Of a stretch of 64,000 nucleotides of DNA, positions 12,847 through 61,807 are shown one piece after another. The DNA comes from Heliocidaris erythrogramma. Its lineage: Eukaryota; Echinodermata; Echinoidea; Camarodonta; Echinometridae. The position numbers were made by a program, and so were the translations under genes. Positions within the stretch are counted from its first letter, which is position 1. Every line of letters starts with the position of its first letter. Location: contig CM046853.1 of assembly GCA_025617745.1 (NCBI GenBank), forward strand, positions 55,704,643-55,768,642, written 5' to 3'. Below the pieces are notes generated by a model. It did not search any database. It had not been told where the DNA came from and saw only the letters and a list, made by a program, of their open reading frames with translations.

Positions 12847-13112
12847 TAAATGCCATCATATGTTCCAGACATGCCCCTCTCATAATCACTTTCAAGAGAA
12901 CCCATACTGGGGTAATCCATACATAGTACATGTTGGCTACATTCTCTGCTCACATAATATTCCACTTCCATCTACATTGATTCAACCTATTTTGCTGAGG
13001 TTTTGCTCTTGTGGTAGTACTAGGTCTAAGGGGTTAAAAAAAAAAAAAATGGACACTATTGATCATTAATAACTCAAAAATTGTGCCTCATAATTATCAG
13101 ACTGAGGTTTTT

Positions 13113-13216
13113 ATGTTGTAAAGAAGAAATACGTAAAATTTAACGGGAGCAATTTCATGACGTTTCTCTAAATGCTTTTCGTAAAATATTGCTCTGAATA
13201 TTTAAAGGAACTACAG
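13113..13216 (+). repeat. Left inverted repeat of the two-gene unit
   Basis: Pairs with the inverted right arm at 24411-24828. Differences are scattered substitutions plus a poly-purine expansion in the right arm, so the two arms have diverged since insertion. Weaker inverted similarity continues inward to about 13498, covering the presumed promoter of the THAP gene. Confidence 0.7.
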
Positions 13217-13404
13217 AATACAACGTCTTTTGGCACTTATTCCATAGTTGATGACTTGTAAACTAGGTCTGCCGAAAAAAATTTCAATGAAAATAAACAC
13301 AGGAGTGATTTTAGTCTAATTTTCTGATGTCAATTCTCACTTAGCAGCCAGTTTACGCCCCGCCCACATTTAGGGTCCAAAATCGGCGTGATTGACACTT
13401 CATC

Positions 13405-13430
13405 GGCCTACGTCATCTAGAGAAGTAAGC
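13405..13430 (+). promoter_or_regulatory. Candidate promoter motif shared by both ends of the unit
   Basis: The stretch around TACGTCATCTAGAGAAG, about 120 bases before the THAP coding start, matches GACGTCATCTAAAGAAC on the opposite strand near 24220-24236, upstream of the P2X7-domain gene. The right copy contains a full CRE-like TGACGTCA. Conservation at the same relative place at both ends suggests a transcription signal or transposase site. Confidence 0.35.
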
Positions 13431-13537
13431 TAGCGGTAGCTTCATACTAAATATATTGATAAGTGTGTTTTGATGCTTTGAGCCTGGAAATAACTCGCGT
13501 AAATGTGTTACTTTCTTGCGTTATTTGAGAAACGACG

Positions 13538-16130
13538 GTGTCAATATGCCTACGTACAAGATGCATTGTTGCAGGCTGTAGTAATACAACTAAAGAAGGT
13601 GTCAGTCTTCATAGATTTCCTAAGGATGAGAAAATAAGGAAAATATGGACGTCTCGGGTGAAACTGACTCGTGGAAAATGGCTAGGACCAACCGACAGCA
13701 GTGTCATTTGTGGCGATCACTTTAACGAATCCGACTTCGAGGAGGAAGGATTGTGGTCGGAGTTTGGCATGAAAAGACTGAAAAAACTCAAACCAAATGC
13801 TATCCCAAAGATCAAAAGCACATTGGAGAAGAGCAGCACTGAGGAAAAAGGGAGAAAGAAAAGCAGACCTGGCTCCGAAAAACGGAAGAAAAGGAAGGTA
13901 AGCCGCTAACGAGTGTAACACGCGTGATCTATGCCAGCGCTCTGGCAGGGTCCTGCTTCAGCGCGCCGCTGAGCCAGCTGTGCCACTTGCATTCTGTATG
14001 TCGCCGGCGCTCCCGCAGGGCTTTGCTGTAGCGCACCGCTGAGGTGCGGCAATTTGATGCATACAGTACCTGGAAGAAATCTTTCATACTTTTCACAAAA
14101 TTCTGTCGAATTTCTTTCTGGGGATGGCTTCAGTAAATATACTACTAGGCCTAGAAGTCTACCGTTGGACTTGGTCATCCTCCAGAAACATATTGCCCTG
14201 GGCTGCGCAGACGATTATTAATTTCAAAATTTTAATGTCTAAATTACATACCAACAGGTAGAATATTTACTCTTTCTAAATACATAAAAGACGAGCAAAA
14301 CTGATATGACCGAAAATTAAGAAATGAAGGTTGAAATTTGTTAGATTTTGGTGAGCAATTTCAGTATTTTTTCATTCTAAACACAAAATACCTTTGTCCT
14401 CAAAGAATTTCGCTTTGTAAAATGTCACTAAAATATTTCCATTTGGTCAACAATGTCTTTCTGGAAAAATGGATGGTTTTTCTGGAAAACCAGCTTAAAA
14501 AAAAACAGTATGAAAACACGTACTTGACTTGCATTTTCCTTACCGTGCTAGCAAGCCAAACAGTTGATCATCTGTGTGGCCTAATGTAGGGCAGAGGGCA
14601 ACATACATACAGTAGGATATATATATATATATTTTTGTAATAGATCATTCAGTTCAAAGAAAGGTTAGGGTACAAAATTTAGCAATGTTATAGGATGCCT
14701 AAATTTCTAATGATTATGTCCTGCTTGCATTGTGTCACAGATGCTTGACGAAATGCTGGAAAAGCATGAGAAACAAATATCACAGACATCTTCGACTACA
14801 GAAGAGGAGACGGAACAGGAGGAAACTGCGATGGAACTGACAGACTCACCAGCATCTCAAGACATAGACCAACCGGGCCCCAGCTGGATGTCTATATCGA
14901 CAGAAAGAGATCAACCAGAACCTAGCTGGAAGTCTGTTGTAAGTGTGATTGTAATGACTGCACACTACCGGTAGAGTTTAAAAAATTGGTGCTAATTTGT
15001 AGACATTGAAAACTCATACTGTATGTTGCCAATATTTTTGTGATTGGATCTGATTTGGTATATTCACAAGGTGCTAAATTCAAGATTTTGATGGCATTCC
15101 TTGTGATACAATAGCCATAGGCCTGCACTGAAGAGGAAACTTTTGGGATGGTGGACTCGCAAAATTCACGAAAATAAAACTGTCACAAAAATTTCAGCTT
15201 ATACATTTCTCTGAAAGATGTCTGTGACATCTAGATACTGATTCAATTGGTTACTTCAAAGTTATATTAATGACATAAAAGTTAGTAATCATTACCAACT
15301 ATATTCATCACACATTAATATTTTTATTTTTCATTTATAGGGAATTCCTTCTGCACCTGCTATGGACATGGCGTTAGAAACCCCAAGAAGAACAAGATCT
15401 TTTGGTACTCAAACTCGGACCGTTGCTACAAGACTCAAACGTAAGTGCCCATATAATAATATTCTTGCGTGTGTTCATGTGTACAGATGTGTGCAAATGT
15501 TCTGTGAGTGTGTTTTAGAATTGGTAGACAGAGCTAAGTACGCAAAAATAGATTTGCCGAGTACAAACCTTATTTTGTTAGTACTAGATACCCATAATTT
15601 CATCAGAATGATTCATACTTTGTTTGTTCAAGTCCCATTACGTTACGTTACAGTAGTTACCCATTTTGTCTTTGTAGATTGCATCTCATCATACTTTCAT
15701 CATACATATTTCAGGGATAATGAAAATAATGTCGGTTTCCTTTCTTTCTTTGTTTACTTTTATCGTTACAATAGATGTCCAGGCTACAGTGAGAGTACAT
15801 GAAAAGGGAGTCTTGACACAACTGCAGCCAGAGTGCACATCAAGAGGCACAATGACCAGTAAGCTTGAAAAAGAAAAAGAGGAGGAAGAGAGTCCCAGCT
15901 CCAGCTCCAGCAGCCACTCGCCGCCAGAAGCACCACAATCTCCAGAGTACGCTCCAAGCAGTGACAGCTCTGATGACGACTACAGGTCACCTCATAAATC
16001 TAAAAAAAAGAAGTGAGAAGTTTTTGTGTTTTTTTTGGTTATTGTTATTGTTGTAAGAAAGTGTTGTTGAAAAATGAATCAGTGATATGAACTTACAACT
16101 AAATTCATAGGCAAAGGAGCACCATGCTCA

Positions 16131-16180
<50 letters not shown>

Positions 16181-18147
16181 GGGGAATATGTAGGAGTTTT
16201 GGCCGAAAATATTCTGCTTGCCCGAAAATCACTATCTGGGAAATCTTGGAAGCCCCCAATTCCCCCCCCCCCCCCCCCAATGTCTCAGTACTTAGTGATA
16301 CAAATTATTACATTCTTGTCACAAAGTTCTATTTTAAAGAAAGGAATGTGTATAAACAAAACATAATTACGGATCAGGTGTACAGAGGCTTTTGTTATTT
16401 GTGTTTTATTACTTTTTCTTTGTTCTTTATGTCTGGCAGGACTGGCACCAAAGCAAAGGCACCATTCCAGCAACGAGACATTCCATCCCATGAAGACACC
16501 AAATATATTGTGTTCGAGTCACAATTACTTGAACTGATGAACACTTGTGAGACATGTGGCTCTGGAGATGTGGAGCTGACCAAGAGAGTAACGGGAACTC
16601 ACCTCAAGGTTGATAGAGAGTGTAATACATGCAGAGCACAGTTTTCCTGGCAGAGCCAGCCCTGGTATGGGAGATATCCAGCAGGAAATATCCTCTTATC
16701 TGCGGCCATTCTTTTTGCCGGAGCAGGTCCCGCCCAGGCACTTCGACTCATGAAATTTCTCCATTTAGCGGTGATTGAAGATTCTACTTTCTTTTCTCAC
16801 CAGAGAAAATTTTTGCAGCCGTCTATCGAGAAGGTGTGGGAATCCCAACAGCTGGAACTTGTGAACGAGCTGAAGGAGAGAGGGACTCCCATTACAGTTG
16901 GAGGAGATGGGCGGGCAGATAGCCCAGGCTTCTCTGCAAAGTATGGGACATATTCTGCCATAGAGCTGCATAGCAAAAAGATCATTGATCTTCAACTTGT
17001 ACAGGTATTGTTTGATTTTCCCTTTTGTAAAAATTCTAGAGTATAGTTTTCATAATTAATACAATAACAATGATCAACATTTAAAAGGGCAATGTAATGC
17101 AGTAAGACTTTTGTTATCAATAAATGTTATTATTTCAGGATTGCAGAAACAAAAAAATACAAAAGAGTTGGTGAATTTGGGACCAGAAATATAGCAGTGT
17201 TCTTTACAACGATAGTGCGCTGTATTAAATTTATGCAAGTTATTTTTTTCTTTCATTCAAATGCTTCTCTTTTCACAATCGAAATGTTATTCTGAGGACT
17301 TTCAGTTCACAAAGCATTCACAGGATTGTGACTATAACCCTTCACTTTTTAAATTTAAAAAAAAATGGGAAAAATGAAATATTTCTTTTACACCTTTTAA
17401 ATTTAATTCTTGTTTATCTCTTCCTTCTTTAGAGCAATGAGGTCAAGAACAGTTCACATATGGAACTGGAAGGCTTCAAGAGGGTCAATCAGAAGCTGAC
17501 TGATCTTGGACTGGTCATTGGCAAGCTCATTACGGATCGTCATAGGCAGCTAGCGAAGTATGTTCGGGAGACCACTCCAGGGATCGATCACCAATTTGAT
17601 GTATGGCACATTGCCAAAGGTAATTTATGTTCTTGTCTGATCAGTCAGTGTGATGTGTACTTAATTTAGTATGTCAGAAAGAAAATATGAGAATACAAAA
17701 TGCCATTAGTATGGAATTTTGTTGTTGCTGTTGTAGATGAATAAAGTTCTGTACAATTGGAGTTTATCTTATATTTTCCCATATTCATTATTTGTATTAG
17801 GCATCAGGAAGAAGATCCATGCTCTTTCCAAGAAGAAAGGATGTGAAGTGGTCGGACAGTGGGAGCAGAGCATCTGCAATCATATCTATTGGACTGCATC
17901 ATCGACCCCTGTGGATCAGCCTGAGCTGCGCATTGCCAAGTGGAGATCATTGTCCAATCATATACAAGGTGTTCATGAAGGTCACAGCGAGCTGTTTCCC
18001 AAATGTCTACACGGGAGCTTGGATGGAGAGAGACAGAAAAAATGGCTTAAACCTGGTAATTGTAGCTTGAATTGTTTCATTTGTTCATGATTAAAGTGTT
18101 TGAATTGTATTCAGGCCCGTACGCAGCTAGGGTGGCATATAGGCAAG

Positions 18148-18220
<73 letters not shown>

Positions 18221-20023
18221 TAGTTGAAAACAAATAAAAAATACCCATTGATGGATGCACCGTTTTATCATAAAAACTTTGAAGTGCCCCCTGGGTAAGA
18301 AAATCCTGTGTACGCCCCTGTTATTTGTTTACATAGGAGATTAAATTTACCCTCATATGAACATTTTACTGAAGTGCAGGAATTTAAATATTTTTCTTGT
18401 TTTTTTAAGTGTATGAATGACAAAATGACAAATATTTAATCCTTCGATACTAAATAGTAACTTTTCCTTTTTACAGGCACATATGTATGTGAGAAGTTGG
18501 AGGACATAGTAAACAGTGGGACTCTACTGAAGGATGTCAAGAAAATGTCAGATGACAAACAAACCTCTGCCCTTGAATCATTTCACAATGTGATCAATCA
18601 GTTTGCGCCAAAGATGAAGGCGTACAAATATCACGGCATCCTCAGTAGGTAAGTATTGTTTGCTTTATTTATTTTCCTCTTTAATATAAAATTCCTTGTT
18701 TTTTCTCTTCAGTTTTCTTTTTTTTCCTTATTGTTTTCCTCTTCAATTTTTTTTTTCAACCGTAAAGTTACTTGTTTTTCCTGTAAGATTACTTTTACTG
18801 CAGTAATTGGGGTGAAGATCAAGCTTCGTATTGCCTTATCATATTGCCATATGTGTGTGGAGTGTGGACAAAAATAAATATAATCAAAACATACACAAAT
18901 CATGAGAATTAATTTAGTTTTGTTTTAAATACCGGTAAGTTTAACAAGATTATTTCAAAGACACGATTCTCTGTCCTTTCTCAGAGTTCATCTTGCTGCC
19001 ATCCATTTTAACTGGAACGCTGATCGCCCGCAGGCTACTACAAAGTCCGGGAAGAAAGCTTACAAGGTCAGGAAATTGAAATACAAGCTTGGGAGGGCTT
19101 CAGTCACCGAAGTGAAAGGACCAAGAGATTTTGGTTAGTTGGTATACAGGGCTCAAACATTTTTTTTTCTGCTTGCCAAGTAGGGCAAGTGCCAACGAAT
19201 TCCACAAAAATCTTTTCTCTTTCATGAGCTTTCAAATGGATATCTCTAAAGTGTCTTGAGTCAAAATGCTAAAAAAGATAGTATTTGACAGTTTATAAAC
19301 GAATCAAAATGATATTATTGCATTCAGAATAGCAGCCCTTCTGGCCAAATGCTTTGAAAATTTTGTTGAGCACTGGATACAACAGAAAAATTACCATTAA
19401 CAAATTAAGTTATTTTTTTGTAGACAATGCAATATATTATACTAGCCTGCACCCTGCAAAAGCAAACACAATAAACATAGATTGCCCACCAAGAAATATT
19501 TACTTATAAATGCATGTATACATCACAATGAGCATGCAATGTACCCTTGTGTTCATGCACCAGGCTACTTGTTTCTATTTCTTCAGAGCCTAGTGAAATT
19601 AGAAATAAGACATTTTTGTTGATTTGTTATCTTCATTCTAGTAGCTGTTTTGTAAAACAAATAAGACACTGTCTTATTTCGTACACACTTGAAAATGCAA
19701 CATCACTTGATTTTTTCATATTTGTGCAATTAGATCTTGCCTGCGCTTATTCCCTACTTGCATTCTGGAAGAACTCTTATGCTTGCTGCATTTCCTAACA
19801 CACTTCAATTCGTGCAATATATTTGTAACTGTGTTTTCTCATCTTTTTTTCTATAGGATACGTCGCAGAGTTGGTAAAAGAGGTTGTGAAGCGAACAAAG
19901 GAGAACAAGAGATCACCCAGGAAAAGAGCAGCACCTCCTCCTTTGACCAGTGGCTTTGATTACCCCAGCAAGGAAGAACTTGTCCAACAACACAGAAGCC
20001 GATTTAATGACAACAAGGATTGA
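13538..20023 (+). CDS. THAP-domain DDE transposase-like protein (Kolobok-like), ten exons
   Basis: Exons: 13538-13897, 14741-14938, 15341-15440, 15775-16012, 16440-17004, 17433-17619, 17801-18055, 18477-18648, 18985-19133, 19857-20023. All junctions are GT/AG and phases agree, giving about 796 codons. Residues 9-61 form a THAP zinc finger (C9, C14, C58, H61; NAIPKI replaces the usual AVPTIF). A Ser/Glu-rich linker follows (about 120-300). Then comes a CxxC...CxxC cluster (335-363) and an RNase H-like core with D455 (GGDGRADSPG), D522 (ITDRH), D543-V-W-H546 (the DxxH motif of several DDE superfamilies) and E668 (LESFHN). The C-terminus is basic. The inferred role is DNA binding and transposition, nuclear. 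Odd: the obvious ATG at 13546 reads MPTYK and is one base out of frame with the finger; the in-frame stretch before the finger has only GTG and a TGA stop at 13526. A domesticated gene is the alternative reading. Confidence 0.88.
16133..16177 (+). repeat. G homopolymer, 45 bases, in intron 4 of the THAP gene
   Basis: An uninterrupted G run within the intron between the linker exon and the catalytic exon; a C run follows at about 16262-16278. Its length may be unreliable in an assembly. It could form G-quadruplexes. Confidence 0.8.
18148..18219 (+). repeat. C homopolymer, about 72 bases, in intron 7 of the THAP gene
   Basis: An uninterrupted C run inside the intron, flanked by GTACGCAGCTAGGG and TACGCCCCTG words of the kind seen at repeat ends in this genome. 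The true length is likely polymorphic or mis-assembled. Confidence 0.8.
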
Positions 20024-20068
20024 TATGTCTCAGCATTATTTCAATGTAGGAGGCCTAACATTGTTTTG

Positions 20069-20753
20069 TTATGCCTCCGCCCACCGAAGATGGTGCCAGA
20101 GGCATTATGTTTTCGGGTTGTCCGTCCGTCCGTCCCGCTTTCTCGTTCTAACAATAACTCATGAGGTATGAACTTTAAATTTGGTACTAGTATGTATCAC
20201 CATAGGAAGAAGATCTGATTAGATTTTGGGAGAGTAGGTCAAAGGTCATAGAGGTCAATTCTGAATTTACGTGATTTCTCAAGAACTATTTGATCCATTA
20301 ACTTCAAACTTGGAACTAGTATGCATCACCATAATGAGACGAACTGATAAGATTTTTGTTCACGTAGGTCAAAGGTGACAGGTGTATGTGAAATTAATGT
20401 TTTTTTACCTTTGTTATCACCATATCTCAACTATTTTGTATTCATGACTAGGAGGAGATAAATTGATCAGACTTTGGGGTATAAGGTGTAAGGTCAAATG
20501 TCAAAGAGGTCAATTAACATGTAATTAGAGGCTTTTTATTCTGGTTTACTTAATTGTTATCACCATATCTCAACTATTTTGTATTCATGACTACGAGGAG
20601 ATAAATTGATCAGACTTTTAGGTTCTAAGGTGTAAGGTCAAATGTCAAAGAGATCAATTAACACGTAATTAGAGGCTTGTTATTCTGGTTCAATCAAAAT
20701 TTAAAACAAATCAACATGAACGTGCGATGGATCTTGCAATGGCGGAGCCATAA
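20069..20753. mobile_element. Non-autonomous element, about 685 bp, ends TTATGSCTCCGCC
   Basis: The left end TTATGCCTCCGCC and the reverse complement of the right end TTATGGCTCCGCC form a terminal inverted repeat with one mismatch. The interior begins with a TCCG-rich run (GTCCGTCCGTCCGTCC) and contains a direct duplication of about 143 bp: TTGTTATCACCATATCTCAA occurs at 20411 and 20554. No reading frame. It lies in the gap between the two convergent genes and may be a later insertion there. Confidence 0.6.
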
Positions 20754-20999
20754 ACTTTGACTGCGTGCAGTCGAGAATTCATCTAGTTTTGTTTGTTTCC
20801 CCCTTATGGATCACATGTCAAAAGTAAAATGTGCCCTTCTGTATTGGTCAGTATGTCTATTTTTTATTGGATCCCTCTGCTTATAAAACATTGATATTAA
20901 AGTAAAGAAACAAAGATTTAGTGAGGTTAAAATTGCTTCATCCTTTGAATTACAGAAACACTCATTTCATTAAAACCTCTCAGGGAACGTAAGGACATA

Positions 21000-22100
21000 G
21001 CTTCAGTGATGCAACAATTTTTTTTGTATAACATAACTTTGAATTTACTGTAAAAGCATTTGTATGTAGTCCAACAGGCCCTACATCATATAAAGAATGT
21101 AATGATTTATTGAAATGAGATTCCATGTGTGTTTGCCTGCTCCTTTACTAAGCATTGATGTGTCTGTTTTAGTGCATCACAAAATACAGCATGACATTCT
21201 CAAACATCATCAAACATCACGGGCACATGGGCATCAACAGGTGGGACATATCACATACACTTTCAATGGGGGGGGGGGGCATATCAAATGTCCCCTCCAC
21301 TCTTGGTGATATTGTGCTAACAAAATAAAACACCATTTCTATCCGGTGACAATTTTCTGATCGCTCACAAACACCACAATCTGATGAAATTGCCCCCCCC
21401 CCACCTAGTCAGTTGGTAGAAACAACCTGTCTGCGCAGAGCATCATGTTATGTTGGCATATTGGTTGTCAGTTCACAAAAGATGTTGGCCTATCCACCCC
21501 CCCCCCCATATTAAAATTCTTGCTACGCCACTGAACATGAACAAAATTTTATACTCGCCAGTAAATACAATGTACTATACTGTACTTTGCTTGATTTTTA
21601 CCTTACAAAACCCTATGCTGGACAGACTAGTCCTCCTTCATACTGTCCCCTCCACTGTTGAAAACCTGTTGATGCCCTTGGACTTTTATTAGGCTAATTT
21701 CATTACTTACAAATTACAAATAATTGTAAACGATTGGGAAGGAGTTAATACTGATAAACGTCTTTTATTTACATTTCATTATACACTTCAGTTTACAGCA
21801 TGTCCAACAAGTTAGGCTGCTCAACATAATCCCATCTTGTACAGTTGACTCGCGTTCTAACGATGTCAGAACCATCAATTTCATTTTGCTATAACAAAAT
21901 GTTGTAATAAGTGGACATTTTATTACATGCCTGAATAGCGATGTGACTCAAAATCTGTTTCGATGTACTGGGAATTTTGTTATATCTGTGTTCATTTTAT
22001 TGAAAGTCGACTGTATTGTCTCAAATTCCAGGAAAAATAATTTGTTTTTAGTATGCATGTATGTTGTGAAACAGCAATAAAGGGTTTTTGCCAGAGTGTT
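21000..22100. other. Intergenic gap between the convergent genes of the unit
   Basis: No exon. It contains short C/G runs near 21270, 21400 and 21500, and a GCTACGCCACTG end at about 21522-21533 that looks like the right terminus of a hAT-like fragment. A minus-strand AATAAA (plus-strand TTTATT near 21766) could end the P2X7-domain transcript, and a plus-strand AATAAA near 21325 could end the THAP transcript. Both are weak evidence because the DNA is AT-rich. Confidence 0.3.
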
Positions 22101-23805
22101 CTAGGGCTCCTGAAATCCTTGATATGCATCGGATGGAAAAGCCTCTCTAATCTTGGTGACGGCACACGACGGGAGGGGTACACGAATTGATCTTCCTAAG
22201 TATTGCCAACACCACCTCACCAGCTGTCTGTAAGCGACGTGTCGGTTCCTCCTGAATGATAGAGGGGGAACAAAAAATGGGGGAAAGGATATTTTTTAAC
22301 AAAAAAACATTGACATTTTTATGACTTAAATACAATCAACTTGACTAATGTCCATATTCACAACACAGTGGGAGTAGCCAGATGGGGACAAGATGAGTGG
22401 GGGATTAACACCAAAATATAACCTTTTCTAATCATTTTCCATATTATAATCCAATTACTTTTATACATCAAATTGGCTGTTTTTAAAAAGAAAATATGAA
22501 TTTTTTGTTTGCTTGCGCGCTCAAAAAATTTTCAGGTCAGTACGGTTGCCCCCATGAAATAAATCTTGTCCCCCTTCTGCCCCCTGCCAGTCTACCCTGG
22601 CTACGCCACTGAAACAATATGCATTCAATTTCTAAGATAACTTGAGTATCTTGTAAAACTTCAGAGTAAAGATATTGAAATTTATCCAGGTGTTGCTTTT
22701 CAATACAATATTACTTCATGCCAGAGTAATGAAAGAGTAAACTCATGGGCTAGGCCTACACTACAGTATGACAAACTTCAGACAAAGACCAACTCACTCA
22801 TGTTCTGAGGCATCAACCTTCTCCATTCCTCTATACTGACTTCTGTACTGGTAGTACGCAATCTCGAGGACGTATCGGTCGAGGCAGCCTGATGGAAATC
22901 CATGGTGGTGCGTGATGCAATCTAGCTCCTCTTCAAAACTGTCCATCTTGTCAACCACTCGCTGAATTTCCTTGCAACAAACACTCTCCTTCACAGTTGC
23001 CATCGGAAAACACCTTCCACTGCATGAGCACCTGCAAAAAAAGGGACCCTAACTTAGTAAACATTTGTCATTTTCAAACTTTGTATAAATACATGGTACA
23101 GTATGTGTAGGTCTACGTACGTTACACACCGTATGTTTCGTGTGGTGGCTGGTCAGCTAAGCCTAAGCTGTAGTGGTACGCAGTACTTGCTCAGTGGCAC
23201 ATACTAGTAGTATTAGCTAGGATTTTTTTATAGGGGGGGGGGGGGTCCTTCGTGTCGACAACTATGTACCGACGCAATGCTCTGCACAGCTTTCTCAATA
23301 TTGGGTGGGGTGTGCAAGCTTGGGCTGCTGTGTTGGACAAGCAAGCGGATCAAAAATGATAATTTATATTATTATTATTATCATAAACTAAATTATTATG
23401 ATTATCAATATGAGTAAAAGTCTAATTTCCCCATCAGCCCATAAACTGTAAAATGTACTAGTACTAGATACAAATCAGGGTATTTAGTTCATTTATTTGA
23501 TTCTGAAACATGAAAGAATAGTTGATAGTGAATGATACGCACCACATATTGTTGCCAAGACGTCTCTCTGGGTCTTCACCCTCACCATCCACGCCTGCCA
23601 TCGGGGCAGCGTCGGCCTCTCCCTCCTCGACTTCTGGCTCGAAGCGGTAGGGTCGAAGCCCGGCGGCTTGGCCTTCCTCACCCTCTTGGCTTTGTTCGCT
23701 CACGTCAGGGGAACTCGGGCCCTGTGGTAAATCCGAGTCCGAATAGGAAATCTCAGAACCTGAATCATCACTTCCAGGAGAGTCTGTGTCTTGGGAAGAC
23801 GCCAT
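22101..23805 (-). CDS. P2X7-type intracellular (ballast) domain protein, 215 aa
   Basis: Exons on the minus strand: 23805-23543, 23031-22798, 22251-22101. Both introns are GT/AG and phase 2, giving 215 codons plus TAG. Start MASSQDTDSPG. Residues 1-80 are acidic and Ser/Glu-rich, ending with RPYRFEPE, a motif typical just before this domain in animal paralogs. The rest is the P2X7 C-terminal intracellular domain: WCSCSGRC, then CVCC-like VCCKEI, then EELDCITHH..GC, then AYRQLVRWCW..LG and LPSCAVTKIR near the end. The Cys/His pattern matches the zinc-binding module of P2X7, but there is no channel part and no membrane segment, so it is not a receptor. Function unknown; it is likely a soluble DNA- or protein-binding partner of the neighbouring transposase. 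The exon 2 donor (GA|GTGAGT) overlaps an in-frame TGA, so intron retention would truncate it at 166 aa. Confidence 0.88.
22366..22611. mobile_element. hAT-like MITE, 246 bp, in intron 2 of the P2X7-domain gene
   Basis: The left end CAGTGGGAGTAGCCAG and the reverse complement of the right end CAGTGGCGTAGCCAGG form an imperfect terminal inverted repeat starting CAGTG, as in hAT elements. Flanking octamers TCACAACA and AAACAATA agree at only five of eight positions, so the target duplication is decayed or absent. No reading frame. Confidence 0.6.
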
Positions 23806-24130
23806 GGTTGTAAGATCAACGTTTATGTCTGAAGTGATGTGAAAATTGTACTCAACGAACTCGACTGAAACGAGCTAGAGTACCGTAGCAGTCGAAAGTC
23901 AAAACAAAACTTTGACAAACTGGCGAACAGCTGATCGAGGGTCGACGTACTATCAACAACATCAGGCTTTCTGCGCACGCGCAGCTAGCTGGAATCAGCC
24001 GTGATGCTATTTTGTGATTGGCCCGTTAAGGAAGCTAGTGTAAAATTCAACCAAAATCCATTTTTTTAACCAAAATTCGTAATTTTTATTTTGCTCATAT
24101 GTAAAAAATCCCAAATCCGAGGTAATCATG

Positions 24131-24290
24131 CACTTGGGACATCAAAATCTGTGATGAAGTGATCACAATAACCGTTTCACATTACGTCGTATACAGAGAC
24201 TATGGGGCGAAGTTCTTTAGATGACGTCACACCAACAGAGGGCAGCATAATCGATTATGGCGATTTAAAAGGGGCGTTCCCAAGGCAATG
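24131..24290 (-). promoter_or_regulatory. Presumed promoter region of the P2X7-domain gene
   Basis: Lies upstream of the minus-strand gene. It carries TGACGTCA near 24224-24231 and inverted similarity to the region upstream of the THAP gene, including a TTTTGATG...ACTCG-type block near 24131-24165 against 13471-13498. This fits terminal repeats that each drive one gene. No TATA box was assigned. Confidence 0.35.
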
Positions 24291-24399
24291 AGATATTCCC
24301 TAATTACTAAAAAATGGATGGATTTCATGGAAAATGACTGCCAAATTCTTTTTCTTGAGGAAAAATTACAGAGAGAGAGCTCAATTGTGAAAATTAGGC

Positions 24400-24828
24400 C
24401 ATCTAGACGCTGTAGTTCCTTTAATCAGATTTTTCACTTTTTGAAATATCAAGGCCGCAAAATCTCTGTGTGTCAGTAATTAATTCAGAACACAACTATC
24501 GCCATTGTGTGTTTGCAGTTGTCACTTCTGCCAACTTTTTGCTGTCCAGTTCATTAATGATTCATGAGTCTGGGTTAAAAAAATGTATTCTGGAATTTCA
24601 GCTGCAATGCACAATGGCAATTGTTGAATTCTGAATTAATTACTGATACACATAGATTTTGGAGGCCCTGATTTTTCAAAGAGTGAAAACCTAATGAAAT
24701 ATTCAGCGCAATATTTGCAGAAAAGTATTCAGAGAAACGTTATGAAACTTGCTCCCAATAAATTTTTACATCTTTCAAAAAAAAAGAAAAAAAAGAAGAA
24801 GCCCATTTCTCCTTTAGTAACACACTAA
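24400..24828 (-). repeat. Right inverted repeat of the two-gene unit
   Basis: Counterpart of 13113-13216, interrupted by the nested 274-bp MITE and by an A/G-rich expansion at about 24778-24800. The innermost part carries CTGTAGTTCCTTT, matching the left arm in inverse orientation. Confidence 0.65.
24423..24696. mobile_element. Inverted-repeat MITE, about 274 bp, nested in the right arm
   Basis: Arms of about 100 bases are inverted copies of each other. TCACTTTTTGAAATATCAAGG and its surroundings pair with the sequence before 24690, and both arms share CAGTAATTAATTCAG. Comparison with the left arm at 13.2 kb shows the insertion point cleanly: TTCCTTT before it and AAATATTCAG after it are contiguous there. 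A TAA or TTAA-like target is possible but degraded. Confidence 0.65.
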
Positions 24829-37150: not shown

Positions 37151-37912
37151 ACTCCATAGGCAAAATCTACTCATTTAGAATATTGGATCATTCGGATGCC
37201 AGTATTGACATTCTACATGCATTGCAGCACTATATACATGGAGCTTGGTAGAGTTCTGTGTAGTACACCTGAAGTACATGTACATCTCTAAAATTGGCTT
37301 TGAGTCAGAAAACATTAATTACATTCTACTGATCACTGTTGAGGAGGATACCCCTTCCCTCCTCAAATCATCCAAGAGAGGGCCTCCTAAATCCATTATT
37401 CATCTTGGATGACTCATAATCTTATATTGAGGCTTCTTACGTCTCTCCTACGTCTCTCTCTCTCTCACCTACGCACCATCCATCTTGCTCCCAGAAGTGT
37501 TTGCGGTAGATGATGCGATCCGGAGACTAGTCTGTCTCCATGCAGTCCGTTGTTATCATCAAGGATCGTCGGTCATTCTGGCGTTACCCCTAATAAGCCT
37601 ATCAATTACAAAATAGCTTCTAGCCATTACAGACAGCGGACTGTGTCTATTCTTAAATACTGCATTCTTAATAAATTTGTCAACTTGCAGCTTCCAAAAA
37701 AGAAAACATAACAGACTTTCCATCAAGGCACCAACTTATAAAACATTTCTAGCTGAATCTACATGTTTGATGTAAAATTAGCTTACCCTATAAAAAAAAC
37801 ACGAAACTATTAAAAGAATTGAAGCCAATTATGCTTTGCAAGACTTTACTATGAGCTAAACCCATGTAAATGAATGCTATTATTCGTATACCTGATAGAT
37901 AGGTGATGTTAA

Positions 37913-38516
37913 AGGAGTATTCCGGCCTGAAAATAATATTAATTCAATGAATAGATTAAAATTAAACAAGCAAAACAATGAAAATTTCATCGAAATCCGA
38001 TAAAAAATAACGAAGTTATTGAATTTTTAAGTTTTGCATTATTTTGGGAAACAGTTCTATGCATGTCATCATGAATATGTAATGAGTGAGCTGATGATGT
38101 CACGTCCCCACTTTCCTTTTTTAACTATATTATATGAAATCTTCATTATTTCATTTTTTCATACATATCTATAAAAAATATCTCCCTTGTAACAAAAAAA
38201 GTTACAGCAATGATGAACTTACACATTAAATAAGGAGTCGGTCCTTTTAGTTAAATAGGCTTGGAGCAAAAAAAATGAATAATTGCAATTTCATATAATA
38301 AAATACAAAAGAAAAAGTGGGGATATGACATCATCAGCTCACTCATTGCATATTCATGAGGACGTGAATATAACTGTTTTACCAAAATAATGCAAAATTT
38401 AAAAATTACATAACTTCATTATTTTTCATCAGATTTCGATGAAATTTTCAGTGATTTGTTTGTTTAATTTTACTCTATTTATTCAATTCATATTAATTTC
38501 AGGCTGGAGTACCCCT
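37913..38516. mobile_element. TTAA-flanked non-autonomous element, 604 bp, long TIRs
   Basis: TTAA flanks both ends exactly. The ends are AGGAGTATTCCGGCCTGAAA and, read inverted, AGGGGTACTCCAGCCTGAAA. The inverted arms extend about 220 bases with good similarity (for example ATTTCATCGAAATC against its inverse, and GATGATGTCA near the inner ends). No transposase frame. A TTAA target is used by piggyBac and Kolobok, so this is a non-autonomous member of one of those groups. Its ends do not visibly match the arms of the 13-25 kb unit. Confidence 0.85.
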
Positions 38517-41500
38517 TTAAATTTCTTCATGATATTGAGTATGTAAGTCTGATATCTTTAAATGACAAGAAACAGGTATCAGCAGGGTGCTTTTACATGG
38601 AGCCAAACCCTTTATTCTGTCTGGTATGGAATTATCACAGAGAAACTGGAAATATGCCAGATTTTGCTGCATTTGCAATATTTGTATAGTCTAAGAATTC
38701 CAACATTGTGAACCCATATTACAATGTATGTGGCGCAATAGTACACAGCATGCATTGTCATTTTCTAAGTGTTCTAAATGTACAATGCACATTGTGTAAA
38801 TGTTTGCTAAATGTTGATGGGTCTCTTTCAAGAACTTCACAATGCGTAGTTATCACCATGTATATAAACAAAAGTTTATGAATATAATATTATATGGATT
38901 GCATTAACAATGTATTCAAAGTTTCAAATTGAAACTACATGTATAACATTGAACTGTATACATGCATGGTGTTTCAGACAGAATTATAATTCATCAAGCA
39001 TACCGGTAGATTGGAATAATTTACTGTTATCTTGGTTCACTATAGGATTAAAAAAAGAAAAACAACAATCGTTCTACATACAGATTGAAAAAACTTAAAC
39101 ATGTATGTATGATAATTGTTTTTATACAAATTTGAAATGTTAACATGAACATGTATGCCTTCAGGCTTCATCTACATGTATACCTTCTAAGAAGCCTATT
39201 TTTAGCAATTCGTTACATCACCAAACAGATAATAATTAATTTTGCCCATATCTAAATCATAATAACACATTTCTGTTTCACTCTGTTTATCATCAACCTT
39301 GTCCTTGGATGATTGGATTTTTAGTGTTGGTTAAACACCAGCTATTTCCTATAGCTATTCCAATGCCAATTGCACCACATGACAAAACTGAAAAAGTACA
39401 GTTAAATCATCAATTAAATCATCAATCTAAAATAAATACTGTACTACTGTATCAATTAAATATCATACAAAATTTCTCCTCTAACATACTGTACATGTAA
39501 TGTACCCGCCAACCATTATGTAAACCGTGATTAAACTAGAGGATGGGAAATAGTTAAAGAGGTTTGGGCCTCCCAGGCTCCAAAATGGCTCCAGATGCTG
39601 TGATCTCACCACGGCATCCCTTTAACCTCAAGCTCTTGAGGAGCCAAGGTACCAATGTTCTAAAAACTAAATGTACAAACATGTAGGGTCCGATGTTACT
39701 TGCCGTGCATTGGCCAGGCTTGTTATGATCTGTTCCGTCAATGAGTTTTCACAAATGCATGCATTGAATACTGTTACATAACTAATCTTTTAGAAATCTC
39801 AGATTTTGGTGAAATGAAATGAGAAATCTACATTCAGCAAAAAATTGCTGTTCCTTTCAATATTCTAATATCTGAAAAAGAAATCCAGTTATCATACATG
39901 CAAATATATAATAATAATAATAATAATAATAACTCTTTTTCCAGCGTTAGGGGGAATTCTTTTCATTTCAGCCTATTGTTATTATTCCCCTTAACGCACG
40001 GTTTCTTTCCCCGCAACGTCGAATTTCTTTGGGACGGAATAAACCGCATTGTTAGGAAATAATGTTGTAATAATAATAATTATAATAATAATTAATAATA
40101 TGTCTTGTTTATCCAGGGTAGCCTCATCAGTACTAAATACTGTTCTACCTGAGGGCCCTGCATATGAGACAGGAAAGTTGGCATGACCCATTTTACTCCT
40201 CAATCTCAATCCTATCAACTTACTGCACTTTTCAAATTTGTTCATCAGTTGATAACGATACCAACAAAATTAACCTATAAACTATATATGTATGTGCATA
40301 TAAATGTGTTATACAATACGTCTGCATCATTTCCTAAAGCATTATTTTTAAAAGAGCAAAGGCACATCCCTTTCTATTTCTAATGAATTAAGCAGATACC
40401 TATCTGGAGCCCTTCAAAGCTGACCGCACACACATGGGAAAGAAACTCATGGACAAACTGTTGATCTTTCATGGTCAGAATATGAATAAAGGCATGGAAA
40501 GTCCTCACCTATTATGCATCCATATATGAGCTCATCTCTAAGTTCATGGTTAGGCTGCAGACTAGGGATTAGCAATCCATCATGGTGTGTTGATAGAAGT
40601 GCCAAAAATATCAGACAAAAATGTTGTATGGAACATGAACTGTACTTCTGAACAGCATCTACAAATACTATATCGATCTATCAAGTTTCTATAACTTATA
40701 TTTGTACACGATCAAATACAGTATCCAACATGAAGACCGTAAACACGCTGTATTTATGCACATATGTTGCGTTAAATGAATAAGAGCATGATCACCAGTA
40801 ACTCATAAGAAAACAAATCATGAAGGCCTGGCACATGTACATGTACTATAGTCCAACCTTCAAGTATTCATGCCATTTACATACACTGTACATTGTATGT
40901 AGGCCTATATAATTGATACTATCCGTAAGTGCAAATTTACACAAATTCTCAACAAAAAAAAATTATACAACATATAGACTATTCCTGTTTAACTCATTCA
41001 AAACATGATCTCTGTGGGTCTCTGTTACATACAATGTCTTGAAAGGGTTAAACACCACTGCATGGGAATCGCCATCTCAATACACCCAAAGTGCTACACA
41101 ACAAGACCTGTCTAGTCCACAGGTAATTAGCAATTACATCTGATTGATTGGATTAAGGCTAATGAGGTGAGGTGGGCAAGACTGTAATGGTTGGACAAAG
41201 CAATGAAATCCTAAGTAGGAAATCCGGATGATCTAATTGCCAATTGGATTTGAATCTTTGATACCTCCTGTTTCATTAATGATCTATTAAAAAGAACAGA
41301 AGACTACTGTCATCTGCAGTTACAAAGTGATAACTGCATTTGTTATATAGCAGACTAGCAGTGATGTCTTGATGCATGTTAGCAGCTAGTTAGTTGATGT
41401 GAACAAATGATGAATGTTATTTTGATTTTGGAATGATAGCATAATTTGTAAATAAAATAATGATAGTGATGTGAGAATGGTAATATGTTATTGATTATTG

Positions 41501-57592: not shown

Positions 57593-60500
57593 TCACTCAT
57601 ACTCATCACCGTCGTCATCGTATTCCTCGTCGTCTTCCTCATCGCCTTCATCGTCGTAGAGAACCTGTTGGTGGGAGGAAGGACCTTGCAGCTCGCCGTT
57701 GTAGCTGGCCTGGGCAGCCTGTGCCATGGCCATCCCGGCCATCATTCCTGGCTGGGGATTGTGGGGGACCATGGTGGGTGGGGCATGATGCTGCACTGGT
57801 GGTGGCTGTGCCATGGGCTGGGGAGCCGGCCTTGGGGTACTTGTAGCTGCAACCAGACCCTTCTGTGTATACACAAAGAGAAACAATGCATTGGTATTGA
57901 AACGTGATATTCTACATTATGGTATTATGATCTCATTGATTTTCACAATTCTACTGCAGCATGACTTTTGCTGACAAAGAACTGCATTAATGCATTTCTT
58001 GAAAAATGTTATCCTTCTGAAAGAAAAATTTGACAATTTTTCCCAAAGATTTTTTTTCTTCTCTTACAAAAAATGTCCACCTGTCCACCTTTCCACCTTA
58101 TGACAAGAAACTGGCATCACCAGAAACGGCTTTGAATTAAGCTTTCATACATAAGCAGCAGTTAGAACCATTGAGTGCAAATTACATGTGGTTATAATTC
58201 AATCTTTACTGTGTCTCCTATTTCTTCATGTTTTTTTTCAATGCCAAAGGATGTCACCGTGGATCCCAAACCAAGTTTCACTTCTCACCTTCTTTCTCCA
58301 TTCTTCCATAGCGCTTTGGTAGGTCTTATACTCCGTGGCTACCCTCTCCAGGTAAGGTTTCTTCTGTTCATCTGTCAGTTTGTTCCATTCCTCACCGCAG
58401 ATCTCTGTCAGACGTCGCCCCTTCTCTATTGTCTTTCCCTTCATCTGCTCGCGGAAATCCGTGAGAAAGTAGAAGTATGCTGTGGGGGGCTTCTTGGGCT
58501 TGTCTGGGTCACGGACCTTTCTGTACACAGAGATCTGCAAAACAAGACAGATACTTATCATTTCAATATTACTCATGTACAGAAAAAACAATGGACCTAT
58601 GTTGTCCTCTAATAGCTTTCAAAGATAATTGGAGAAACTGGACTACCAATTTAGCATTAGACATTTAGATGCAACAAGACTAAATCCCTGACCTTGGCCA
58701 AATTGTCTGTTTACCAAAGGTTTTGATCGCAAATTTCATGAATCACACATAATACATGAGTAGAAAGAACAAACATCACATTAATTTTGACTTTTTTGTT
58801 GTTTCAATACACTGTGGCATCCATGAATAAAACAATTTGGAAAAAAAAGCAATAAGGTCTCTAAATAAATGGCAACGTGGAGTGGATTTTATAATCACTA
58901 TTTTCAGGTACAAATTGGCAATTTTTGGTTGCATTTTGTAATCTTCAGTTGCTATTGTTCATTTAATGGACATTTTGATTTGCCTAAAACTATGTAAGAG
59001 TACAAATGGAAACATCAGGTACCAATTTGAGGCATCAAAGCTGATCCACTTAAACCTCTCCTCTAGGAAATTCTGAACTGCTATGGGTTAAAGCTAGTAA
59101 ATGTATTTCTTTTTCTCACGATTTGGTTTGCCGAATGATTATCTTATCAATTTTTGCACACACTTACATTTAGTCATTGCCATTATGCACATTACAAAGC
59201 CCTAAAACAAATAAGATTTTTTTTTAAATCAAAATTTTTGTTTATTAATTCACGCACAAGTTTGTTTACTTCGTTACCCATTAATATAAGAAAGAGAAGT
59301 AAACATGCTGTAATAAGGGAAGCAAAAAGATTTTAAATATTACTATTTACCTCTGCCTCATATCTTTTTCTGTCGATGCCTGCCTTCTCCTGGTATGGTC
59401 CCTTCTCGGCGTCCGTCATCGAGCTCCATTTCATACCACATGCCTTTGTGATCTCACTCGCCTACAGCCATGTAAACAACAAATAAACTCAAATGAGATA
59501 TATATTTCTTCCTTCAAACTCAACTATTTTCCTTCTATCAAACGTAGGCTGACTATACATGCTCTACATCACAAAATAGGTCAATTTCTAAAGTATTGCA
59601 TCTTTTAATATGCCTTTATTCCTTGTGGCAGTATTTGTTACATTGAAAAGTAGAAAAAATATGATATCTACTTTTGCTTTGAACCAAGTCTTTTTTCCTG
59701 CTACAATACTTGTGCTGATATACATAACCCTTTTCTTGGAGATGAATTAGGTCAATTTCAATAATAGCAAATAAAAAATGCATTTAACTCATGTTATCTT
59801 CCTTGTGACAGTATTCATTTACTACATGATTTCATATTCTATTGAAAAAAACATCTTTACTCCAGATTTTTGTCAGGTCCTTAATGCAGGGTGCTTAAAA
59901 TGTCTTCCACATGAGCAGAAATGACATGTTTGCAATTGACAAAATGTTCCCATCTTCCCTTGTTGGTGAAACTACATAGCTTTCATGTCCACAGGGTTTG
60001 GAGAAGCTGCTATTCAATCTGTCACATGACATCATTCACTGTGGCAAACAATGAATAATTCAACAAAATATGAAATGGATTTTTAACACTAAGTACCAAA
60101 CACATTCTTTCAGACTCTACAAAAAAGGAAGGAAAAAAAGACTTCAAAACCTGTTTGGTCAGATATTCAAACAGACAAATATGATTGTGACTCACAAATA
60201 ATCTTTTCCCTCAAATTTTGGATTGTTTGGCTTGTACATGTATTTTTCAGCATTTCCCCACATTTAGATTTACAAGTTGTGAAGGGTGATTTATCTATCA
60301 TGCAACTTGTAATCAATCATCTGTCTTACTTTGATTTGCTAGCTTTTGGAAGAACAACTGTGAGACTCTATGACCTCAACTTGCAATGACAGCTTGTATA
60401 AAACATTGCTTATAAAAAGACTAAACACTAATAAAAGAACTTGTTCTTTCCACACAAAACTTTTGAGTGCAAATCTAAGCTGGATTTTCTCATATTCCTT

Positions 60501-61807
60501 ATATTTCTGAATAATGTAGTGGAATTAGTGGAAAAAATCTCTACTTAATGACTTTATGGACTAAAATCCTCAAAGAAGTACATCAGCCAAATGAATAAAA
60601 TATAAAACAAGAAAAAACAAAACAACAAATAAGACAAAAACACAGAATGCTCTAGCAATAGGAAGAAGACAAAGCCAGAGAAACGACAAAAATTCTAAAT
60701 CTGTATTTCAGTGAGATTCCCTACGGAGGCATTTAGCTGGATCAGCAAGTAGAATAATTGATCAAATCTTGAGATCTGGCGGGAAGCAACTACAGCTAGT
60801 GTAATTTCTTACTTCCTCAATTCCATCCGCTAAGTCAATGTACACTGAGTGACAGATTCAACAGCCTGGATTTGATTAATCAAGCCACTTGGTGCTTAAA
60901 ACTCAATTTCAGTTTTATCCCATAAGCCGTAAAGGTATTTCTTTTTTTGGGGGGGAGCAGAATAAAATAATGTGTCTTTCGTATTCTAATGCATAAATAT
61001 GGTAAATGAAAACTATTTTAATTGTTTACACAGATATTCATTTAATTCTACCTCAATATTTTGTCATGTTATTTAAGACAACATTTGACTCATATAACAC
61101 ATGAACACAGAGGGTTATAACAAAAATATAAATGTGCTTTGAAATATTTCTCAATCTTTCAGATTTGCAAAAGTCAGAATTATTTCCAACTATCATCAAT
61201 CTATTAATAATATTGCCTTGTTTATTTATTAGAAAATTCATCTATAGTTCATTTAAATCAAATTTGACAATTTTGACATCTTAGGAATTTACCAATAAAC
61301 AAACAGGGATGTATGAAATGAGAAAAATCTGTGCATCTGCAAAGAAATGACTACTCTTGGGAGAGAATACTCACCCTTGGGATCTGGTCACCATCCTTCA
61401 CGTAATTCTTGCGGAACGTGTCGAGAAAGAAGAAGTACGCTGTTTTTGCTCTTTTCACGTGGGATCCAGGCCTGTTCCTCTTTCGCCTCTTCTTGCCCTT
61501 GTCCGCCAGAGGCTTGCGTCCTCGCTTCTTGGGGAAGTACATCGCCGAGGGGTCCGTTCCTGACAAAGGGAGAAACTCTGCAAGAGATGAATATGCCCCA
61601 GGGTCGGGGAAGAGGCGATTGGGATTAAATTTGGAAGGGGGTGTGCCGAAAAAGAGTTTGTGACCCACCACCTTGGTTTGTTAGCATGCATTTTTGTGTT
61701 TTACCTTGCGATGATACCATGAGGTTCTTCGCCACAGCCTGGGGGTTTGTTTGAGTGGGTCTTGGTCCATATATAGGATAGACCACATCTACTCCCTGGT
61801 CGGACAT
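57593..61807 (-). CDS. Two-HMG-box protein with acidic tail, 304 aa, HMGB-like
   Basis: Minus-strand exons: 61807-61705, 61559-61375, 59461-59351, 58534-58289, 57862-57593. All junctions are GT/AG and phases agree (1, 0, 0, 0). Start MSDQGVDVVYP. Residues 1-45 are unlike HMGB. A basic AT-hook-like KKRGRKPL lies at 45-52 and a KGKKRRKRNR cluster follows. HMG box 1 spans about 68-137 (KRAKTAYFFFLDTFRK...KWSSMTDAEKGPY, split by the first long intron). HMG box 2 spans about 146-215 (KPKKPPTAYFYFLTDFRE...EEWNKLTDEQKKPY). Then comes a Pro/Gln/Met-rich linker and a C-terminal run of about 20 mostly Asp/Glu residues. It is a nuclear DNA-bending chromatin protein by family. An alternative acceptor at the second exon (CAG at about 61582) would add a few in-frame residues. 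A 5' UTR exon may lie upstream. Confidence 0.9.

Follow-up and report, generated by a model that had tools for sequence, protein, structure and literature searches.

The 64,000-nucleotide stretch of the Heliocidaris erythrogramma genome analysed here (contig CM046853.1, positions 55,704,643 to 55,768,642; hereafter the window) very probably holds a recently active DNA transposon of the Kolobok superfamily, of the two-gene Kol0 type, in which a gene named KolX stands beside the transposase gene. We put the probability of this reading at about 0.92. The element shows the features by which Kolobok is recognized, namely a TTAA duplication, AG...CT termini, a DDD/E core with C/DxxH and a THAP domain, together with the feature that marks Kol0, an encoded KolX protein, which here aligns to P2X7 residues 469-594. 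An earlier sequence-only reading of the window could not say whether such a pairing had been described. It is already in print: elements of the Kol0 (Kolobok0) group of Kolobok code for KolX beside their transposase, and KolX, which resembles P2X7 residues 476-595, was identified as the P2X7 cytoplasmic ballast (Kojima & Bao 2022, PMC9587614), so that the main idea of that reading is not new. What is said here of cited papers refers to excerpts of them.

The element ends and the insertion site

Two inverted repeats, at 13126-13203 and 24697-24776 (84% identical, E 2e-16), bracket both genes and had been read as the borders of the transposon. The repeats are real, but they are the arms of a dispersed miniature inverted-repeat transposable element (MITE) and were rejected as element ends. 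The true ends lie just inside them: TTAAAGGAACTACAG, that is, TTAA followed by AGGAACTACAG, stands at 13202-13216, just inside the left 80-bp repeat, and its reverse complement at 24410-24424. The sequence-only reading had itself named unrelated dispersed MITEs as a finding that would speak against it, and for the repeats this came true, yet the transposon conclusion survives because the true ends lie inside the MITE arms. The features of the ends are as follows.

13206-24420, no strand: Kolobok element (Kol0-type), 11,215 bp between TTAA duplications, bounded there by the inverted ends and by the genomic copies
13202-13205, no strand: left TTAA target duplication (inverted-end analysis, copy comparison)
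24421-24424, no strand: right TTAA target duplication (inverted-end analysis, copy comparison)
13206-13216, plus strand: left terminal inverted repeat AGGAACTACAG, 11 bp (inverted-end analysis, genome word count)
24410-24420, minus strand: right terminal inverted repeat, reverse complement of AGGAACTACAG (inverted-end analysis, genome word count)
13126-13201, no strand: left piece of the interrupted foldback MITE; genomic MITE matches extend at least to 13100
24425-24776, no strand: right piece of the interrupted foldback MITE, including a palindrome at 24431-24689
13410-13419, plus strand: subterminal ten-base motif ACGTCATCTA, 204 bp inside the left end
24218-24227, minus strand: subterminal motif ACGTCATCTA, inverted, 193 bp inside the right end

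Joining the two flanks over a single TTAA gives a reconstructed empty site in which a 432-bp MITE palindrome is restored (self-pairing 77%, E 8e-87). Since the joined flanks make up one MITE, an older foldback MITE must have been split by insertion into its TTAA, and the element entered there as one block.

Searches of the genome (1.064 Gb, 26 contigs) placed the ends at the same points. The left-end query of 601 bases (13100-13700) was scored against the best 40 of 751 candidates and gave 52 rows. The left ends of five further near-identical copies start at query position 102 or 103, the latter being 13202, and 33 of the 52 rows, 75-88% identical, are confined to query 1-108 and represent the MITE without the element, a dispersed family; 20 of these 33 fall into ten inverted pairs separated by a few hundred bases. 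With the right-end query (23560-24440, 881 bases), three of the five other near-identical copies end at query position 865, which is 24424, and two at 872 and 878, 7 and 13 bases further. Genome-wide there are 19 occurrences of the 15-base end word (TTAA plus AGGAACTACAG) and 6 of its reversed control. The 19 comprise five inverted pairs, which are the five full-length copies described below, two words that belong to copies with one end, and seven at single places.

The subterminal motif ACGTCATCTA occurs once per strand in the window, and the 15-base form of the match reaches only E 1.6; as a candidate transposase-binding site it is a lead only. Elsewhere in the window, a 612-bp self-inverted element at 37909-38520 starts with TTAAAGG, ends with CCTTTAA and is a 78% palindrome; it looks like a short foldback MITE of Kolobok type.

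The two genes and their copies in the genome

The transposase gene runs on the plus strand (13546-20023) in ten exons, with nine GT-AG introns whose phases join unbroken, and KolX runs towards it on the minus strand (23805-22101) in three exons encoding 215 amino acids.

13546-13897, plus strand: transposase exon 1, ATG at 13546, THAP domain (PF05485)
13554-13557, plus strand: 4-bp insertion in the window copy, putting ATG 13546 out of frame with the THAP domain
14741-14938, plus strand: transposase exon 2 (gene model, copy comparison)
15341-15440, plus strand: transposase exon 3 (gene model, copy comparison)
15775-16012, plus strand: transposase exon 4 (gene model, copy comparison)
16440-17004, plus strand: transposase exon 5, with a CxxC...CxxC zinc-ribbon-like region and the first catalytic-type D at 16906 or 16918
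17433-17619, plus strand: transposase exon 6, second D at 17535-17537, DVWH (C/DxxH signature) at 17598-17609
17801-18055, plus strand: transposase exon 7 (gene model)
18477-18648, plus strand: transposase exon 8, final E at 18575-18577
18985-19133, plus strand: transposase exon 9 (gene model)
19857-20023, plus strand: transposase exon 10, stop at 20021-20023
23543-23805, minus strand: KolX exon 1, acidic N-terminal part, ATG at 23805
22798-23031, minus strand: KolX exon 2, cysteine motifs CSCSGRC, VCC and DCIT; the intron interrupts the W that precedes the first C
22101-22251, minus strand: KolX exon 3, with RHVAY and LPSCAVTKIREAFP; end at 22101

The earlier description of two convergent, intact multi-exon genes thus holds for the gene order, the exon structure and KolX, but not for the transposase of the window copy. 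None of the five other copies that hold exon 1 has the insertion at 13554-13557, and this five-copy comparison led us to reject a missing upstream exon as the cause of the start-codon problem. Since the insertion lies directly behind the start codon, the window copy probably makes no full-length transposase; it could make KolX.

The THAP domain of the transposase model was matched by Pfam at E 1.3e-15. The DDE core, with two candidates for the first D, a second D and DVWH between it and the last E, was found by motif rather than by a Kolobok profile. The Pfam Mutator family PF20700 matched the exon-5 open reading frame (E 6e-8), and the whole transposase model gave no such match. Mutator/MULE elements make target duplications of 8-11 bp, and this identity was rejected because of the 4-bp TTAA duplication. 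piggyBac elements also duplicate TTAA but have 5'-CCY termini; this element starts with AGG, and piggyBac was set aside. Scans with the transposase found no relatives in IMG/VR viral contigs or GTDB genome contigs. Two of the transposase introns contain long runs of poly-G and poly-C (16133-16184 and 18148-18219), and diverged direct repeats (73%) lie within the element directly behind the transposase stop (20168-20690).

KolX matches PF20478 (P2RX7_C, the P2X7 intracellular domain) at E 4.7e-13, and by phmmer it matches four distinct solved P2X7 sequences, the best at E 5.1e-5. Its clusters WCSCSGRC, VCC, DCIT and PSC contain the seven conserved zinc-site cysteines; compared with WCxCx2C the first cluster has an extra residue, and CC and CIT lie further apart than in P2X7. 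Three of the five positions of the rat P2X7 GDP site are kept in the alignment (R546, H547 and R578) and two are not (R574 and K583). A KolX scan of IMG/VR viral contigs found no relatives.

Including the window, five full-length copies were found (C1:55.7M, C1:72.1M, C4:20.85M, C8:9.3M and C12:45.5M), together with two that are one-ended in the stretches read, C5:3.41M with the left end only and C8:2.6M with the right end only. TTAA stands at both ends of the five and at the present end of the two, with differing DNA beyond, the end-search words themselves containing TTAA; the guess of a Kolobok element with a TTAA duplication was thus borne out. Each of the four other full-length copies has both KolX and the transposase gene between the same ends, the C12 transposase lacking exons 3-4, so that copies of the kind the sequence-only reading had proposed to look for do exist. 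In all five other copies with KolX exons, these exons are open. A transposase frame uninterrupted from ATG to stop is present in three of the six other copies (C4, C1:72M and C8:9.3M; 792-794 amino acids); the other three lack exons 3-4 (C12), 8-10 (C5) or 1-4 (C8:2.6M).

Mismatches against the window, summed over the six copies, amount to 201 of 25437 intron positions (0.79%), 55 of 12561 positions in transposase exons (0.44%), 15 of 3240 in KolX exons (0.46%) and 70 of 14464 in the remaining non-coding parts (0.48%). This low divergence speaks for recent activity, and the element would have been mobile until recently.

At C4:20743988-20910159, five transposase loci, 45-99% identical to the window exon 5, lie in 170 kb, perhaps as nested insertions.

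Beyond these close copies, the exon-5 protein was searched against the genome (all 82 of 82 candidates were scored, and the 71 rows obtained were combined into 60 transposase loci) and compared with a KolX set of 232 rows from two listings (best 150 of 984 and best 150 of 463 candidates scored), so that the KolX counts are lower bounds. Among the matches listed, at least 27 of the 60 transposase loci are followed within 16 kb by a KolX on the opposite strand, that is, in convergent order; there were no KolX placements on the same strand downstream or upstream, and one was divergent upstream. In 1000 random placements the mean number of convergent pairs was 0.13 and the highest was 2. Exon-5 identity to the window is as low as 32% among the paired loci. 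In the divergent element at C11:20.39M the gene order is the same as in the window; the ends that flank its genes, TTAAAGGGTCTC and TTAAAGGTTCAC, are separated by about 13.3 kb, and its transposase segments are 41-71% and its KolX 65-71% identical to those of the window; two further TTAAAGG words in this stretch, both upstream of the chosen end pair, were set aside. The claim that the P2X7-domain gene belongs to the transposon is therefore upheld, since all four other full-length copies and the divergent subfamilies keep the pair.

Several observations weigh against the two-gene Kol0 reading. The placement in Kol0 rests on architecture. The near-identical C5:3.41M copy shows neither KolX nor a right end within the 21.5 kb read. 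Among the matches listed, 33 of the 60 transposase loci have no KolX; when five of these were read downstream, three had a convergently placed KolX of divergent sequence, and the other two had none within 9.0 and 9.6 kb. The tally is at least 30 paired loci of 60 and three, C5:3.41M included, without a nearby KolX. Within the family, moreover, the KolX exons (0.46% divergent) are hardly more conserved than the non-coding DNA outside introns (0.48%).

Two stretches on the minus strand outside the element, 58241-58618 and 61354-61680, are open and by eye resemble HMG-box exons. tRNA and Rfam scans gave no matches.

A possible role for KolX

We propose that the THAP domain would bind the element ends and that the DDE core would cut and rejoin at TTAA, as extrapolated from the Kolobok superfamily. 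KolX would be a zinc-binding accessory protein serving the transposase-bearing element, which the constraint between subfamilies suggests, and our best guess is that its role would lie in protein interaction or complex assembly during transposition and not in catalysis.

This constraint was seen when the window family was compared with divergent subfamilies by the proportions of changed non-synonymous (pN) and synonymous (pS) sites. Over 125 codons compared with C11:20.39M, KolX gave pN 0.23 and pS 0.88; for the transposase core, over 354 codons, pN was 0.27 and pS 0.82. The comparison with C11:1.46M gave 0.14 and 0.65 for KolX (41 codons) and 0.27 and 0.81 for the transposase (387 codons), and that with C4:20.74M, where no KolX was found, 0.30 and 0.82 for the transposase (234 codons). 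Since synonymous change is near saturation, these values point strongly to constraint on both genes between subfamilies. Among the close copies pN/pS was 0.40 for KolX and 0.38 for transposase exons 2-10, from few changes and without an interval. We give these within-family values little weight because, introns aside, the non-coding DNA is nearly as similar between copies as the exons are; constraint within the family counts as weak evidence, and the comparison of exons with non-coding DNA is not a clear test of selection.

KolX is also found in repeats that seem to lack a transposase. These have Kolobok-like ends, on different copies and never both on one: the left end TTAAAGGTTCCC in the repeats at C6:52.4M and C16:16.8M, and KolX-side ends TTAAAGGTTCCC at C10:53.58M and TTAAAGGTCCCC at C7:4.3M. 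The C6 repeat (C6:52416068) contains a THAP exon with KolX exons 2 and 3 and spans about 4.85 kb between its left end and the position that aligns with the C10 right end; the C16 repeat (C16:16819981) contains KolX exons 2 and 3 and measures about 2.65 kb from its left end to the end of the C10 alignment. The C6, C10 (C10:53579796) and C16 repeats were read directly, and no DDE match was found in any of them. To the left of the C10 copy (C10:53574060-53577315) lies a tandem array of about 3.2 kb with units of roughly 120 bp.

A search with KolX exon 2 of these repeats gave 150 matches (best 150 of 608 candidates scored). Among the matches listed, the top nineteen are 90-100% identical over nearly the whole of exon 2, and many others cover its second half only. 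More than 100 whole or partial ballast domains are present in the genome among the matches listed, which is a lower bound. From the nineteen top rows (at least 90% identical over at least residues 2-78) we compared 16, leaving out C12:31989299, C6:26759454 and C6:26767631, whose score equals that of another row. Their KolX has a pN/pS of 0.79 (interval 0.44-1.73), a value biased downwards by choosing copies by protein similarity, and one of the 16 has a stop. The lack of DDE was read directly in three of the 16; the other 13 have no nearby row in the exon-5 search, except C13:30607716 with a DDE row 3 kb away. A comparison of three copies of these repeats has too few changes to tell. KolX in the presumed DDE-less repeats may therefore be in neutral decay or under mild constraint, which are indistinguishable here. 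A KolX useful only together with the transposase would be expected to show such a contrast with the constrained subfamilies, but the samples differ in age and size.

It is conceivable that KolX mainly counteracts the host or has a regulatory function, for instance against silencing or as a brake on the transposase, outside the transposition reaction itself. In P2X7 the ballast domain coordinates zinc and binds a guanine nucleotide (PMC7016195), KolX is a gene of its own at the far end of the element, and numerous KolX-bearing repeats have no DDE match nearby, all of which would suit such a function. Selection on KolX in the DDE-less repeats is, however, not clear, which does not suggest a selected brake, and we consider a mainly regulatory role unlikely.

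More improbable still is a mere passenger role, in which KolX would derive from a host gene or gene fragment that was trapped a single time between the ends and would be of no help in transposition. The two unpaired transposase loci read without KolX, the KolX exons of the window family that are hardly more conserved than the non-intron non-coding rest, and the KolX of the presumed non-autonomous elements, whose evolution is indistinguishable from neutral, could all be explained in this way. A passenger would, however, hardly be expected to keep one orientation at loci that share only 32-56% exon-5 protein identity with the window, to be strongly constrained between subfamilies, or to occur in Kol0 elements of vertebrates, annelids, cnidarians and sponges (PMC9587614). 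That a transposase gene and an unrelated P2X7-domain gene came to lie between two MITE copies by chance can be dismissed, since, even with the 80-bp repeats belonging to a dispersed MITE family (33 of the 52 left-end rows), the two halves are pieces of one copy split at TTAA and further copies hold both genes between the same ends.

Returning to KolX as an accessory of the transposase, we tentatively suggest a wider scheme, to which we give somewhat less than even odds. KolX would be a required partner of the transposase, kept in convergent order across divergent subfamilies and decaying after loss of DDE. DDE-less elements would have scattered the more than 100 whole or partial ballast domains in this genome, and these would be raw material for stand-alone ballast (ZCD) genes and for the capture that gave rise to P2X7. 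The 'ancestral synteny' of ZCD genes (PMC7016195) could then partly be the transposon itself, and we conjecture that the neighbours that these genes share could prove to be Kolobok transposase.

The zinc-binding domain in the tail of the P2X7 ion channel is the same domain as the KolX gene of this element. With a clean insertion, marked by its empty site in a MITE, and recent readable copies, the role of the ballast domain before it joined a channel can be tested at the bench. Invertebrate genes annotated as P2X7-like should be checked for being transposon genes.

Comparison with known systems

Stand-alone ballast genes have been described across animals, with fewer than 10 per species and two shared neighbours (Rump et al. 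2020, PMC7016195). KolX of this element shares with the P2X7 ballast and with the ZCD proteins, nanor among them, the motifs WC.C...C, CC..CIT and PSC...IR..FP; it differs in having no channel domain, in being encoded by a transposon and in carrying Ala at the C/S position of the last motif (motifs from PMC7016195). Kojima and Bao state that P2X7 originated when a P2X4-like gene fused with KolX, and they regard nanor as a probable domesticated KolX (PMC9587614).

The Xenopus Kolobok (XKol) has AG termini and a THAP domain, and a putative zinc finger, H2CH, has been named for Kolobok (PMC6004289). The element described here resembles XKol and T2-MITE in its THAP and DDE transposase, its AG termini, its recent activity and a related MITE family. 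It differs in that the XKol transposases come from long single open reading frames and the present one from ten exons, and in its KolX, a word absent from the main text of PMC6004289.

The closest likeness is to Kol0, whose KolX-encoding lineage is the one reported from the four animal groups named above and which follows the Kolobok terminal rule 5'-RR...YY-3' (PMC9587614). As in Kol0, the present element has TTAA duplications, RR...YY termini (here AG...CT), a DDD/E core with C/DxxH and a KolX with the ballast domain. What is added here to the Kol0 passages of that paper is the empty site, the fixed convergent order of the two genes, and KolX-bearing derivatives that seemingly lack DDE.

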